64,000 nt of DNA from a virus, in the IMG/VR virus record IMGVR_UViG_3300025009_000051, positions 62,001-126,000 of that record; one strand, 5' to 3'. The notes under the pieces were generated by a model. It was given only the letters and a program-made list of their open reading frames with translations. It did no database searches and was not told where the DNA came from. The position numbers were made by a program, and so were the translations under genes. Below, one piece after another: positions 38,047 to 53,280 of the stretch (position 1 is its first letter; each line of letters starts with the position of its first letter).

Positions 38047-38721
38047 ATGAAAACAGAAAACGAAAAATGGTATTGCCCAGTATGTAAATCAGAAGTGGTT
38101 TATGAAAAGCACAGAAATTGTCAAACATTAGATGAGCACGTTTGCGATCCAAATGGAACTCCTTCATCAAAACCAACTTATCATTGTAGCAATCCAAAAT
38201 GTATTTGTAATAAGCAAAAAGTTTTTTGGGATTGGTATGGTGACATGTACGGGGGGTTTAAAATTCCAGACACTACCTTTATAAATGGTAATGATTCTCC
38301 TTTTGGTTCTCACTCAAGAAAACAAAATGTTGAAATTTACAAGAAAGGCTTACCGAGACAAAAATATTTATCTCCTTGGTGGACTCTTAAACTTTGGCAA
38401 CCAATGATTGAATATCATTATAAATCCAATACAGATGGGGAAGTATTAAAGAAATGGACAAAGATTGAATTCCTCAAAAAAACTGCTGGATTCGATAATA
38501 AATATTGTACTCATGTTTCTTTGTGGAGTCACACTTTAAATTTCTTATTGAAGAATGCAAAAAGACATTACAGAACAAACCAAATTGAAAGGCTATTCAA
38601 AAAATCAAACAATCGTGATTTTATATATAGGTTTGCAGAAAAGCTTGTTATACTTCTTTATTTACGAACTTATTTAAAGGAAGGAAAAAAATTGGATAAT
38701 AAACCAGATTTTCGTTGGTAA
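38047..38721 (+). CDS. Hypothetical protein with zinc-ribbon-like Cys motifs, 224 aa
   Basis: WYCPVCKSEVVYEKHRNCQT at the N-terminus, then HVCDPNG and YHCSNPKCICNKQKVFWDWY: several CxxC pairs. The remainder is a basic, aromatic-rich domain (SPWWTLKLWQPMIEYHYKSN, LKNAKRHYRTNQIERLFKKS). Could bind nucleic acid. Not recognised. The orphan TnpB-guide-like element starts close after its stop. Confidence 0.6.
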   Translation: MKTENEKWYCPVCKSEVVYEKHRNCQTLDEHVCDPNGTPSSKPTYHCSNPKCICNKQKVFWDWYGDMYGGFKIPDTTFINGNDSPFGSHSRKQNVEIYKKGLPRQKYLSPWWTLKLWQPMIEYHYKSNTDGEVLKKWTKIEFLKKTAGFDNKYCTHVSLWSHTLNFLLKNAKRHYRTNQIERLFKKSNNRDFIYRFAEKLVILLYLRTYLKEGKKLDNKPDFRW

Positions 38722-38767
38722 AAATAAATTTTGTAATCTTAATTTTTTTAGTTATAATTCTTGCATA

Positions 38768-38884
38768 TAAAACAAAATAGGGCCGAGTAGGTCCGAATTA
38801 ACGCCTTTGGAGAGTAACTCGTTGGAGCCTCATTGAATTAGGAAAAATGAATATAAAGAAATTTATATGAAATTTAATATTATG
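38768..38884 (+). ncRNA. Orphan TnpB guide-RNA-like element (omega RNA plus right end) without tnpB
   Basis: About 117 nt align almost without gaps to the 3' end of the intact tnpB (53108-53225), from AACAAAATAGGGCCGAGTAG to ATATGAAATTTAATATTAT. The stem GGGCC/GGTCC keeps pairing against GGGCT/GGCCC in the other copy, through changed bases. The TnpB reading frame is interrupted by TAG here, so the conservation is of RNA or DNA structure. The right-end palindrome around ATATAAAGAAATTTATAT is kept. No tnpB lies nearby. Sequence diverges after about 38884, where a guide would begin. Confidence 0.8.
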
Positions 38885-38903
38885 TTTTCGTTAAACTAAT
38901 AAA

Positions 38904-39347
38904 ATGAAACACAAAATCAATTCAGGTAAACTTCCTTTCTATATCGAATCTTTCGAAGTAGAAAAATCTTCTGTTCATATTTCATTTGAAACCTATACTT
39001 GTAAATGGTTAATAGATGGAATTAAAACAGAATATAATATCTTTGAATATCGCATTACTTCTTTATTTGATCTTACTGAAATCGAAGCAATGGATTTAGT
39101 TCAACCAATTATGATTGAGAAAGGAGAAATTATAGACGATGTGACAGGTGAACAATTAAAAGAAGATATGCTCATTGGATTTGAAAATTATATGAAAAAA
39201 CCTAAGCATGCGAATATTATGCATTTTAATTCTGCAATAGATTCTCTAAAATCTTTAATTCAATATGAATATTCAGAATATGATGATTCAAAAAATTATT
39301 TATTGATTATACCAAAACAGTTTAAAAATGGAAATTCTACCACATGA
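38904..39347 (+). CDS. Hypothetical protein, 147 aa
   Basis: Beta-rich start MKHKINSGKLPFYIESFEVE; SLFDLTEIEAMDLVQPIMIE and EDMLIGFENYMKKPKHANIM follow. Not recognised. It begins 20 nt after the orphan guide element, whose insertion may have replaced its upstream region. Confidence 0.6.
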   Translation: MKHKINSGKLPFYIESFEVEKSSVHISFETYTCKWLIDGIKTEYNIFEYRITSLFDLTEIEAMDLVQPIMIEKGEIIDDVTGEQLKEDMLIGFENYMKKPKHANIMHFNSAIDSLKSLIQYEYSEYDDSKNYLLIIPKQFKNGNSTT

Positions 39348-44100: not shown

Positions 44101-44574
44101 ATGAGAACAAAGTATGATGGAATAGAATACCACTTCTTTTGGAATGGACCATTTAGTAATTGGTATTTTTCTGAATTTGTAATTGATAATATAAAATTTA
44201 TCGGTGGTGAACAATATATGATGTATCAGAAAGCTATTGTTTTTAATGATACTGACACTGCAGAAAAAATTATGGAAGAAATATTCCCAAATAAACAAAA
44301 ATCATTAGGAAGATTAGTTAAGAATTATGATGATAAAGTATGGGCAGAAAAAAGATATGAATTAGTTAAAAAAGGATTGAGAGAAAAATTTAATCAAAAT
44401 CAATCTTTAAAAAATAAATTAAAATCATATCAAGGTTGTATCTTTGTCGAAGCATCTCCTTATGATAGAATTTGGGGTATTGGATTTTATGATGATGTAG
44501 CTTTACAACATATAGATGAATGGGGGCAAAATTTACTTGGTAAAATATTGACAGAACTGTCAAATGAATTATAG
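44101..44574 (+). CDS. NADAR/RibX-like protein, 157 aa
   Basis: FFWNGPFSNWYFSEFVIDNI then GGEQYMMYQKAIVFNDTDTA (about residues 11-60) and SPYDRIWGIGFYDD (about 119-132) match the YbiA/NADAR pattern (FSNWxxSxF, xEQxMMxxKAxxFxD, D.IWGIG). These enzymes act on ADP-ribosylated or riboflavin-pathway N-glycosides. In phages such a protein could reverse or exploit ADP-ribose modifications. Converges on the homing-nuclease gene, overlapping by 6 nt. Confidence 0.85.
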   Translation: MRTKYDGIEYHFFWNGPFSNWYFSEFVIDNIKFIGGEQYMMYQKAIVFNDTDTAEKIMEEIFPNKQKSLGRLVKNYDDKVWAEKRYELVKKGLREKFNQNQSLKNKLKSYQGCIFVEASPYDRIWGIGFYDDVALQHIDEWGQNLLGKILTELSNEL

Positions 44575-46257
44575 ATTGCAGATTACTTCATATTTTAAAC
44601 TACCACAATCCCAAATTCTATCATAACCTAAATTTATCATATTTTCCCATTCTGATAAATCTTTATTTCCATTGTATTTATTAACAATTTGATATTTGGT
44701 AAAATTAAATCTATGTTTTCTTTCCGAATAATTTAATAAATACCAATAATTTGGAGTTCCTTTATCTATTAATTTAAATCCTAATTTTTCATATAAAGTT
44801 GTATTAAGAGTAGAAGACCACCTTCTATCAGCATAACTATGAATTTTATTTGGTTTATATTTAGATATAAAATAATTTAATAGTTTGCCGGCAGTTCCAA
44901 TTGCAATATAATTTTCATTTGCAGCATATCTTATTAATTCATAATCATTTTCTGAATTTTCTTTTTTGCCATATATAATTCTTTTTTTACTAAATGTCAT
45001 AATTGCTATAATTTCATTATTAAAAAAAGCTCCTAATTTAATACTACTTTTATCCTTTCCTTGTATGTGATATTTTTCTAAAAATATATCTTTTTCTTGA
45101 CTCGATATTTCTTTGATAATTGTATTTCTGCCATAAATTCTTTCTTTATTAGTATTTAATTTTAAAATATATTTTAATTTATTTTTTATTAATTCTTTTT
45201 TATTGCACCATTCATCATCAAAAATGTGAATTAATTGAATTCCTTTTTCTTCACATAATTTTGTTTTTGTAATGTGATAATCTTTTAATTTTCCATTCAA
45301 TTCGGAATGCCAGTATAATCCATTAAATTCAATGGCAAGATTAAAATCTGGAAGATAAATATCTATTTCAAATGGATTAATAATAGATTTTGAATGTATT
45401 ACAATATTTTCTATATTTAATGTTTGTAGATATTCTTTAATCTCTATTTCTGGTTTTGATTGAAAAGAAGGAGAATAATTTCCTAATCCTAAAACATAAT
45501 TTTCTGATAATTTATTTTGTGTATTTTTAGATACTATTTCTCCATATTTTTGCTTGTATTCTTTTTGAGAAATATTGTGCAATTTTAAATGACTATTTGT
45601 TAAATATTTTAATTTTTGATTGCATATTTTACATTCGATATAATTTTCAATATTATCAGTTAAAAATTTTTTTCTTTCTAATATATAATGATATTGTTTC
45701 CATAAATAATTATATTCTGGATATTGTTCTAAAAATAAAGATATAGAAACTTTATGTTCTTTTAATAAATGTTGAGTAAACCAACCAGATTTATTTTCTA
45801 TATCAATTGTATTCCAATCACAATATGGGCATTGAAGAATTGGAGAAGTTTCTCTTTCTTCTAGAATATAATATTCTTTAAAATTTTTATCCGAAATATT
45901 GTGTTCATTTCTTAAATGCCTTGTTAATGCACCACTTGCATTTATTGAATCATAAAATATTTTATTGCATATTTTACATTTTAATTGCTTTGTTTTGTCT
46001 CCTTTATCTTTTCTTGCTCTTTTTTGATTTAATTCTACATCTGAATGTTTGCATGTGTTTGAACAATAAACCTTATCTATTGGTGTTTCTCTCTTTCCAC
46101 AAATTTTGCATTTATATAAATTTTCTTCAATTAAAAATTTCTTCTTATATTCATGTTTATCTAATCCATGAATTTTTATATGGTTATAGAAAGAACTCGA
46201 ATTTTGTATTGGTTTATTGCAATATGGACAATAATATAAATATTTTATTTTGATCAT
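44569..46257 (-). CDS. Vsr/EDxHD-like homing endonuclease with zinc fingers
   Basis: 562 residues. The N-terminal 230 hold several CxxC...H-type zinc-finger units (YYCPYCNKPIQNSSSFYNHI, CKICGKRETPIDKVYCSNTC, CKICNKIFYDSINASGALTR, CPYCDW). The nuclease follows: PEIEIKEYLQTLNIEN, FEIDIYLPDFNLAIEFNGLY then WHSE, and KGIQLIHIFDDEW, the arrangement of Vsr-like phage homing nucleases such as I-Bth0305I. The C-terminal 200 residues (KLGAFFNNEIIAIMTFSKKR, KIHSYADRRWSS) are GNAT-like, of unknown use. It lies beyond the capsid-gene terminator, next to the major capsid gene, its probable homing target. Confidence 0.85.
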   Translation of the reverse strand: MIKIKYLYYCPYCNKPIQNSSSFYNHIKIHGLDKHEYKKKFLIEENLYKCKICGKRETPIDKVYCSNTCKHSDVELNQKRARKDKGDKTKQLKCKICNKIFYDSINASGALTRHLRNEHNISDKNFKEYYILEERETSPILQCPYCDWNTIDIENKSGWFTQHLLKEHKVSISLFLEQYPEYNYLWKQYHYILERKKFLTDNIENYIECKICNQKLKYLTNSHLKLHNISQKEYKQKYGEIVSKNTQNKLSENYVLGLGNYSPSFQSKPEIEIKEYLQTLNIENIVIHSKSIINPFEIDIYLPDFNLAIEFNGLYWHSELNGKLKDYHITKTKLCEEKGIQLIHIFDDEWCNKKELIKNKLKYILKLNTNKERIYGRNTIIKEISSQEKDIFLEKYHIQGKDKSSIKLGAFFNNEIIAIMTFSKKRIIYGKKENSENDYELIRYAANENYIAIGTAGKLLNYFISKYKPNKIHSYADRRWSSTLNTTLYEKLGFKLIDKGTPNYWYLLNYSERKHRFNFTKYQIVNKYNGNKDLSEWENMINLGYDRIWDCGSLKYEVICNL

Positions 46258-49744: not shown

Positions 49745-50158
49745 ATGATAGTCAAAGAACAAATATCCAATAGAAAAAGAATTAATCATATAATTCTAAC
49801 TCCTACTCCACATATTAAATCTTACGCTGCATTAATATCTTTGAATGATTATTACAGTTCGTTAGATAGGGAAATTTTAGAAGAAATGGATTGGAGATAT
49901 CTTTTTATATTTAAACGTACATGGCTTAGACATAGAAAGGATGATAACGGTAATCATACTTGTGAATATTGTGGAAGAACGGATTTAAAAATTGGACCAA
50001 GGAAGTCTCATCCAGGTAAAAACCAAAAATCTTATATTACCCTCGATCATATAATGCCATTATCTAAAGGTGGAGGAAAATTTGATACTAATAATTTTGC
50101 CAAAGCATGTTTTAATTGCAATACTAAAAAAGGTGATACAATTATAAATTTAAAATAA
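49745..50158 (+). CDS. HNH endonuclease
   Basis: 137 residues. CEYCGRTDLKIGPRKSHPGK then SYITLDHIMPLSKGGGKFDT and NNFAKACFNCNTKKGD (about 78-131): the first CxxC, DH...G, N and second CxxC of zinc-bound HNH nucleases. No NUMOD or Hint region, so it may be a free-standing homing nuclease or a phage DNA-processing enzyme. Coupled by 7-nt spacing to its neighbours. Confidence 0.88.
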   Translation: MIVKEQISNRKRINHIILTPTPHIKSYAALISLNDYYSSLDREILEEMDWRYLFIFKRTWLRHRKDDNGNHTCEYCGRTDLKIGPRKSHPGKNQKSYITLDHIMPLSKGGGKFDTNNFAKACFNCNTKKGDTIINLK

Positions 50159-51923: not shown

Positions 51924-51967
51924 GAAAAAAATTAGGTTCTTTTTTTATTTTTTATAGTTATATGTAT
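51924..51967 (+). promoter_or_regulatory. Promoter-like region before tnpB
   Basis: AAATTAGGTTCTTTTTTTAT, then TTTTTATAGTTATATGTATA: the same upstream element as before 3484 and 49335, followed by a degenerate late-type motif. tnpB starts 15 nt later. May also form the transposon left end. Confidence 0.45.
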
Positions 51968-51982
51968 AAAAAGAATGTATAA

Positions 51983-53176
51983 ATGTTAAAAGCAATTAAA
52001 ATAAGAATATATCCAAATCAAGAACAAATGAATTATATAAATAATTTATTAGGATCTGCAAGATTTGTTTATAACAACTGCTTGGCATTTAAGATTGATT
52101 CTTATAACAACGAAAAGAAAAATGTTGGATTCGCTGAATTAGGTAGATATTTGACTGAATTGAAACAGAAAGAAGAATTTATTTGGTTAAAAGATGTACA
52201 TGCTAAGGTCTTGCAGCAATCTCTAATTAATCTAAATCAAGCTTATTCTAATTTTTTTAAAAATGGATTTGGATTTCCTAATTTCAAGAGTAGGAAAAGC
52301 TACAAGCAATCTTGTAGATTTCCGAAAGATGCAATTGGTAAGATTGAAGAAAATAAAATAACTTTGATTAAACAATTAAAAAATATTCCATTTAGATGCT
52401 CTGAAAGAGATAAAAATTATTTGAACTCTCATCAAGAAAATATTCATTCTGCGACACTCTTAAAAACTAAAACAAATAAATATTATCTTTCAATTTTAAT
52501 TGATTTTGAGTTAAATAAAAAATTAAAAGAAACAGAAAAAATCATTGGAATTGATCTTGGAATTAAAAATTTTATTGTAACTTCTGAGAATGAAAAAATT
52601 GAAAATATTAAAATTATTAGAAACAATCAAGAAAAATTAAAAAAATTACATCAAAATTTATCAAAGAAGAAAAACGGATCAAAAAATAAAGAGAAAGCAA
52701 GGATCAAATTGGCCAGATTCAACGAAAAATTAAACAACAAAAAAGAGTTTTATTTGCATCAAATATCAAATCAATTATTAGATGAAAACCAAGTCATAAT
52801 AATGGAAGATTTAGATATTAAGAGCATGCTTCAAAATCATCAATTAGCTCGAAGTATCCAAGAATTGTCTTTATATACATTTAAATCAATCTTGAAATAC
52901 AAAGCTAAATGGTATAATAGAGACATCATTGAAATCAATAAATTCTTTCCTTCGTCAAAATTATGTTCTTCTTGTGGTTACAAGAAAGATGATTTAGAAT
53001 TAAAAGACAGAAATTGGACCTGTCCAGAATGTGGAGCAGAACATGAAAGAGATTTAAATGCAGCTAAAAATATTTTGAAAGAAGGAAAGAGAATATTAGA
53101 AATAAAAGAAAACAAAATAGGGCTGAGTAGGCCCGAATCAACGCTTGTGGAGAGCAACTCATTAGAGTCTCGTTGA
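51983..53176 (+). CDS. tnpB: TnpB RNA-guided nuclease (IS200/IS605 OrfB), apparently intact
   Basis: 397 residues. KAIKIRIYPNQEQMNYINNL then SARFVYNNCLAFKID at the start. RuvC acids are all present: Asp in KIIGIDLGIKNFIVTSENEK (about 190), Glu in QVIIMEDLDIKSML (about 274) and Asp in EHERDLNAAKNIL (about 355). A zinc finger CSSCGYKKDDLELKDRNWTC then PECG lies between. It ends GLSRPESTLVESNS, the usual TnpB tail encoded within its guide RNA. No TnpA transposase gene is present, so it is non-autonomous or used for guided cutting and homing. Confidence 0.93.
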   Translation: MLKAIKIRIYPNQEQMNYINNLLGSARFVYNNCLAFKIDSYNNEKKNVGFAELGRYLTELKQKEEFIWLKDVHAKVLQQSLINLNQAYSNFFKNGFGFPNFKSRKSYKQSCRFPKDAIGKIEENKITLIKQLKNIPFRCSERDKNYLNSHQENIHSATLLKTKTNKYYLSILIDFELNKKLKETEKIIGIDLGIKNFIVTSENEKIENIKIIRNNQEKLKKLHQNLSKKKNGSKNKEKARIKLARFNEKLNNKKEFYLHQISNQLLDENQVIIMEDLDIKSMLQNHQLARSIQELSLYTFKSILKYKAKWYNRDIIEINKFFPSSKLCSSCGYKKDDLELKDRNWTCPECGAEHERDLNAAKNILKEGKRILEIKENKIGLSRPESTLVESNSLESR

Positions 53177-53225
53177 AACAAGAAAAAATTCATATAAAGA
53201 TTTTTATATGAAATTTAATACTATA
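53108..53225 (+). ncRNA. TnpB guide RNA (omega RNA) and right end of the element
   Basis: Overlaps the 3' end of tnpB and extends about 50 nt past it. It is a near match to the orphan copy at 38768-38884. Stem GGGCT/GGCCC (53120-53134), an internal GGAGAGCAACTC segment, and a right-end palindrome CATATAAAGATTTTTATATG (53191-53210). Homology to the orphan ends at about 53225; the guide should follow (ATTGACTATAATCTCTAATC). Transcription and processing are inferred from the family. Confidence 0.82.
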
Positions 53226-53280
53226 TTGACTATAATCTCTAATCTGACTCAAAAGATGTGTGGCACGATCGCCAAATTGT

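Follow-up and report, generated by a model that had tools for sequence, protein, structure and literature searches.

The closest described relatives of the element reported here are TnpB systems in which a transposon-encoded protein is paired with a guide RNA (reRNA). In ISDra2, the reRNA and the 3′ part of tnpB overlap, the guide is flanking DNA, and transposon homing has been proposed (PMC8612924). RAGATH-18 is the guide RNA of IS607-type TnpB; 64% of RAGATH-18 RNAs adjoin an IS607 TnpB, the others apparently going unanalysed, and IS607 reRNAs do not overlap coding sequence (PMC11061315). IStrons combine a group I intron with an IS605 or IS607 TnpB, and variants that lack an open reading frame (ORF) are known (PMC4227781); for TldR, a supply of guides in trans from a locus with a broken tldR has been suggested (PMC13418256). 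None of the scaffold family, TnpB homing or ORF-less IStrons is new. Here, we describe a reRNA scaffold that lacks a neighbouring nuclease gene (an orphan) in a stretch of 64,000 nucleotides (nt) of viral DNA (positions 62001-126000 of the 183,716-base IMG/VR phage record IMGVR_UViG_3300025009_000051, labelled G000; the whole stretch is hereafter the window). G000 holds this scaffold (orphan 1), a second orphan beyond the window (orphan 3, the third scaffold copy) and a single intact tnpB with a linked scaffold; the guides are distinct, and the structure of the scaffold is that of a family. We give an even chance to the view that orphan 1 is a guide-RNA gene that stands alone and that the resident TnpB employs in trans, cutting phages that lack the insert and homing into them.

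The features of the locus, in window coordinates, are the following:

38774..38883, plus strand: complete orphan reRNA scaffold (orphan 1) without an adjacent nuclease; 84% identity to the tnpB-linked scaffold
38780..38794, plus strand: helix A, GGGCC (38780-38784), 5-nt loop, GGTCC (38790-38794)
38804..38842, plus strand: helix B (CCT 38804-38806 / AGG 38840-38842) around helix C; RAGATH-18-like core
38851..38868, plus strand: 3′ hairpin ATATAAA-gaaa-TTTATAT ahead of the guide
38884..38903, plus strand: predicted 20-nt guide of orphan 1, GTTTTCGTTAAACTAATAAA, its start placed where similarity among the three copies ends
51983..53176, plus strand: intact tnpB, 397 amino acids (aa), with OrfB_IS605, a Cas12f1-like TNB zinc ribbon and a helix-turn-helix
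53114..53224, plus strand: tnpB-linked reRNA scaffold, overlapping the tnpB 3′ end; covariance model R1, 80.9 bits, E 1.9e-17
53225..53244, plus strand: predicted guide of the tnpB-linked reRNA, ATTGACTATAATCTCTAATC
38719..38734, plus strand: 16-nt block TAAAAATAAATTTTGT, possible promoter −33 region, common to both G000 orphans at a similar upstream distance
38047..38721, plus strand: upstream ORF, 224 aa, without a Pfam match
38904..39347, plus strand: downstream ORF, 147 aa, without a Pfam match; the guide segment is its 5′ leader

An earlier note on this DNA had aligned the segment 38768-38884 with the guide-RNA region at 53108-53225, and had described it as an element without a nuclease gene. 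The alignment was recovered (84% over about 115 nt, E 8e-30); the ORFs on either side, 38047-38721 and 38904-39347, are unrelated, and the intact tnpB lies at 51983-53176. Because the upstream side is occupied by the ORF at 38047-38721, no tnpB remnant is present there. The statement that the sequences differ where the guide starts was likewise borne out, similarity ending at 38883 and 53224 and the next 20 nt being unrelated; all three G000 copies end at the same point, and the 20 nt that follow are unrelated between copies. The guide of orphan 1 fills the space to the next ORF, its last base directly preceding the ATG at 38904. The claim that the overlapping reading frame is broken within the segment was mistaken: 22 codons are open to the TGA of tnpB in both orphans, and the in-frame TAA is just upstream. 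Orphan 1 was matched by R1 at G000:100776-100846 (79.4 bits, E 4.8e-17). Orphan 3, at G000:147439-147554 on the minus strand, is 97% identical to orphan 1 and occupies the gap ahead of an RlaP-like gene, on its 5′ side. The 3′ hairpin found in orphan 1 is also present in the tnpB-linked copy, at 53192-53209; a right-end hairpin is present at the G000 orphans, and, as judged by eye, no left-end hairpin was seen upstream of them.

Exactly one tnpB is found in the whole of the G000 record. By alignment with solved TnpB proteins, its product has the sequence features of an active nuclease, namely the RuvC D/E/D residues (GIDLG at 189, MEDL at 274, ERDLNAA at 355) and the zinc ribbon (CSSC at 328, CPEC at 347). 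ISDra2 TnpB is its second-best solved relative by sequence, after an AI-designed nuclease, and is closer (E 2.2e-64) than 8iaz (E 2.3e-39). As in ISDra2, the tnpB-linked reRNA begins within the 3′ part of tnpB and its guide is flanking DNA; whereas ISDra2 has tnpA and a reRNA in cis, two of the scaffolds here stand alone, and no match to PF01797, the family of the Y1 transposase TnpA, was found in G000, which may be a fragment. The core helix arrangement of RAGATH-18 is the same as in orphan 1, but the tnpB-linked copy overlaps coding sequence, unlike IS607 reRNAs. When Rfam RAGATH-18 (RF03064) was searched against 251 bases, orphan 1 aligned to the full-length model (1-71) with 21.7 bits and E 0.071; since this is below the Rfam gathering score of 44.9 bits, it is filed as RAGATH-18-like and as a non-member. 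A related orphan in the Staphylococcus phage group Silviavirus, that of StAP1 (see below), exceeds the cut-off with 60.6 bits.

A scan of viral contigs with the core pattern returned 57 stretches with 59 scaffold sites, and the same scaffold layout is seen in every family sequence listed; the exact G000 scaffold pattern had no match in viral contigs. Linked and orphan scaffolds were told apart by searching for TnpB upstream with a hidden Markov model and tblastn, and were counted by hand: 27 sites have TnpB upstream, 13 are too close to a contig end, and 19 are clear orphans, with at least 1.9 kb upstream free of any TnpB signal. The 19 represent about 16 distinct orphans, four being from one virus. 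Lak-type contigs, taken at one point for orphans, were left out once they proved to carry a TnpB whose gene contains TAG codons in frame. In an alignment of 33 scaffolds, 89.7% of cells are paired, two-sided changes number 66 as against 19.9 ± 3.5 after shuffling, and the covariation score is 0.386 (shuffled, 0.157); the signal collapses once the partners are slid. Secondary structure is therefore conserved across the reRNA family, with strong covariation. The particular covariation that the note had seen in the stem GGGCC/GGTCC versus GGGCT/GGCCC was overstated: within helix A these are two one-sided G-C/G-U changes only, but helix B has a real two-sided change, pair 32/121 of alignment A1 reading C-G in both orphans and U-A in the copy linked to tnpB. 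Across the 33 family members, four of the five pairs of helix A do have two-sided changes. Other members of the family were noted in passing. Klebsiella phage FBKp34 (L220, 101338-102926, minus strand) has one TnpB and three reRNA-like scaffolds, two just upstream and one downstream, and the Lak megaphage Lak-B8 (L233, 186854-186963, minus strand) has an orphan reRNA in addition to three TnpB-linked scaffolds. Four contig ends from metagenome 3300012009 (L127, L133, L172) fall within near-identical reRNA scaffolds, which suggests that a multi-copy repeat broke the assembly there.

The arrangement in G000, an orphan scaffold in the same genome as a TnpB, is found elsewhere. Records were scanned whole with the covariance model and a TnpB protein, and coordinates were compared; an orphan and a TnpB-linked scaffold occur together in six records (G000, G015, G016, G017, G023 and G026). 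In two further records the orphans come in pairs preceded by a common module. The two orphans of G013 share 37 nt upstream, starting with TTGAAA or TTTAAA and containing TATAAT or TATACT, directly followed by the scaffold, and the two of G014 share 36 nt upstream, again followed by the scaffold; neither pair has any similarity beyond module and scaffold, and their guides differ. By resemblance, these modules are promoter-like and are putative promoters. The two G000 orphans share a 16-nt run upstream; when 3000 pairs of upstream regions from the window were compared, the longest shared run was of that length in 0.1%. A gapped comparison of the upstream regions was not significant (P 0.11). Orphans in G013 (L256) and G018 (L292) are preceded by a left-end-like hairpin (CCATCTTCTATAAGATGGAGATGAATTG in L256, a similar one in L292), so laid out that left end, promoter-like stretch, reRNA and right end follow one another without an ORF. 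A different element, about 125 nt long, is scattered through G013 in at least five copies, with an IS605-like right end ..AGTGGTAGTAGTTCAC and a differing sequence after each copy (L286-L290, at 94220-94440, 119520-119740, 133100-133320, 149940-150160 and 180-400); its core is absent from the R1 matches, and it is possibly a second family of ORF-less guide RNAs.

How an orphan can arise, and what its guide matches, is seen in the Silviaviruses. The portal gene is uninterrupted in V1SA22; in MR003 it carries an insert with a promoter, a broken tnpB and RAGATH-18; in MRSA28 tnpB is partly deleted; and in StAP1 tnpB is gone, and the same promoter as in MR003 is fused to the RAGATH-18 reRNA. The StAP1 portion of 1,801 bp is identical in SA11, PBSA08 and SAC, and StAP1 keeps other TnpB-like genes. 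Its guide, AAGTCCCCGTGATGATGGCT, equals the uninterrupted portal sequence of V1SA22 directly 3′ of the insertion site at 20 of 20 positions. Two further Silviavirus inserts, in an SbcC-like gene and in a tail lysin gene, have guides that match the uninterrupted alleles of Stau2 but for one or two bases, a count that depends on the assumed start of the guide; the changes are consistent with recoding. The Silviaviruses thus provide three inserts, including one orphan, whose guides match the empty allele, and this is the ground for a homing reading; the target-adjacent motif as read from the Silviavirus junctions is ambiguous. The Silviavirus inserts, within coding sequence at GG-containing sites, look like IStrons, whereas the G000 orphans are intergenic, of about 110 nt and without an intron; the Rfam intron models had no match on the StAP1 insert. 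Related phages therefore offer precedents for the loss of tnpB with promoter fusion, for shared promoter-like modules and for a guide that matches the empty allele. In Prevotella phage Lak-B8 (L111, 1440-1510 and 2780-2850), the DNA 3′ of TnpB nearly repeats the 3′-terminal part of the gene that precedes TnpB (GGCATAAATAATAAGATTAAGG versus GGTATAAACAATAAGATTAAAG), as expected of a guide derived from, and recoded against, a neighbouring gene.

We infer that transcription, loading, cutting and homing could proceed in the G000 phage as follows. The orphan would be transcribed independently of tnpB, its RNA would fold as the tnpB-linked scaffold does, and the single TnpB of the phage would load it in trans, the guide being the DNA just 3′ of the scaffold (38884-38903), in the leader of the next gene. 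In the carrier, the insert would separate the match to the guide from any target-adjacent motif, so that the carrier phage would be spared; in a co-infecting relative without the insert, motif and target would be joined and cut, and repair from the carrier would copy the insert into the cut relative. One nuclease would in this way maintain several dispersed inserts, two of which encode RNA only. Of the two possibilities raised in the earlier note, that of a separate guide stands in so far as the segment is a nuclease-less TnpB guide-RNA scaffold, has a guide segment different from the others, and is a member of an RNA family whose structure is conserved; the other, a solo transposon end, is in its plain form less likely for the G000 pair, for reasons of age and state given below.

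Several results weigh against use of the orphans in trans, some of them by favouring the main rival, in which the orphans are inert and functionless, a solo right end left after tnpB deletion and duplicated once in the phage. For the trio of G000 scaffolds alone, 18 of 20 helix pairs are retained, which is not beyond chance (P = 0.20; without helix B, P = 0.03), and the folds of the orphans are weak when set against shuffles (z −1.3 and −1.8, compared with −3.6 for the tnpB copy); both observations suit an inert remnant. The loss of tnpB, which counts for the guide-gene reading as the origin of orphans, suits a remnant as well; it is seen directly in the Silviaviruses and in an orphan at G015:86672, where about 10 codons of the TnpB C terminus remain upstream after another tnpB deletion. 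Rhodothermus phage RM378 (L219/L225, 25478-25710), in which a 47-residue N-terminal fragment of TnpB directly precedes a well-scoring reRNA, is an internal-deletion derivative and points the same way. The orphans of G013, G014 and G018 occur with no TnpB in the available sequence, which is possibly fragmentary. With 5 sites in the window versus 4.1 expected, the Bacteroidetes promoter pattern TTTG-N-TAnnTTTG shows no enrichment, and is therefore weak as evidence despite a TTTG-N19-TAAATTTG immediately upstream of orphan 3. The proteins adjoining both G000 orphans have no relatives in viral contigs, close relatives not having been found, so that no empty site is available for G000. Neither the guide of orphan 1 nor that of the tnpB copy has an exact 20-nt match in viral contigs, and the comparison with other phage DNA that the earlier note had proposed gave, in these exact scans, no target. 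Finally, the resident reRNA changed helix B alongside its TnpB, and the older orphan scaffold may no longer fit.

The state of the orphans speaks against decay. At 11 columns the resident copy stands apart from the two orphans and, at most of these, outgroup scaffolds, TnpB-linked ones included, have the orphan letter. In a tree built from a small alignment, with modest support, the branch to the resident copy is long (0.15) and those to the orphans are short. Taken together, the outgroup letters and the branch lengths imply that the two-sided change in helix B arose in the resident copy, and ancestral letters on short branches argue against decaying remnants; helix A, helix C and the hairpin are also complete in both orphans. 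Orphans moreover recur in many unrelated phages, and the paired ones have intact promoter-like modules. We therefore judge an inert remnant to be rather unlikely, although it is the strongest competitor of the guide gene acting in trans.

Phages exclude relatives by means of homing nucleases, and the copies in G000 have different guides; a guide could accordingly be directed at rivals or at the host, at a target unrelated to the orphan's own insertion site. When the three G000 guides were compared with the window and the collected phage loci, the best second match had three mismatches, in A-rich sequence; this, together with the two guides that lack an exact match in viral contigs and the checkable related cases, which match their cognate empty site instead, makes an attack guide quite improbable. 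Slightly less probable again is a regulatory RNA, in which scaffold and TnpB would bind at, or control, the gene downstream, of which the guide forms the leader, in the manner of TldR or as a leader element in cis. Both G000 orphans lie directly 5′ of a same-strand gene (the ORF at 38904 and the RlaP-like gene), and prophages encode TnpB-derived RNA-guided repressors (PMC13418256). TldR proteins resemble the present case in being phage-encoded TnpB relatives with guide RNAs, but they are nuclease-dead, whereas the resident TnpB retains intact RuvC motifs; furthermore, in cis the target of the guide lacks an adjacent motif of its own, since the scaffold lies where one would be.

The carrier is a T4-like phage of Bacteroidetes type; its major capsid protein is T4-like and is up to 58% identical to proteins of environmental contigs and 51-53% identical to those of Microcystis, Flavobacterium and uncultured phages. 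An AT-rich repeat block (AAAAATTAGGTTCTTTTTTTATTTTTTATA and variants), perhaps a phage promoter, is found 5′ of tnpB (window 51930-51975) and of several other genes, with further sites at G000:167351, 10768, 111305 and 65483. Two other genes of the window may be free-standing mobile nucleases, one for a 562-aa protein with zinc-finger matches (44569-46257, minus strand) and one for a 137-aa HNH endonuclease (49745-50158, plus strand).

In the literature searched, which did not extend to subscription papers, we found no description of phages with orphan guide-RNA genes that are present in several copies and have promoter-like modules of their own, and no paper describing stand-alone phage reRNAs. 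Omega-RNAs that act in trans, as well as IS605 elements that have an omega-RNA but no ORF, have reportedly been published in subscription papers.

The arrangement of one nuclease with separate guide copies recurs in many phages, and guides made elsewhere may aim one nuclease at several sites. Should the orphans act in trans, a single small nuclease would serve several guides, each made from a gene of its own, and an insert that measures about 110 nt and has no protein gene could be a homing element; cultured Silviaviruses with and without the insert allow a direct test. More tentatively, and with somewhat less than even confidence, we propose that phages carry dispersed stand-alone guide-RNA genes, each with its own promoter, which one TnpB uses in trans, and that RNA-only inserts of about 110 nt spread by borrowing a nuclease; such a set of unlinked guides would resemble an early stage in the separation of guide and effector loci seen in CRISPR. 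Use of the orphans in trans would also bear on how phages exclude their relatives, and on how TnpB guide RNAs could have become detached from their nuclease gene in the evolution of CRISPR.
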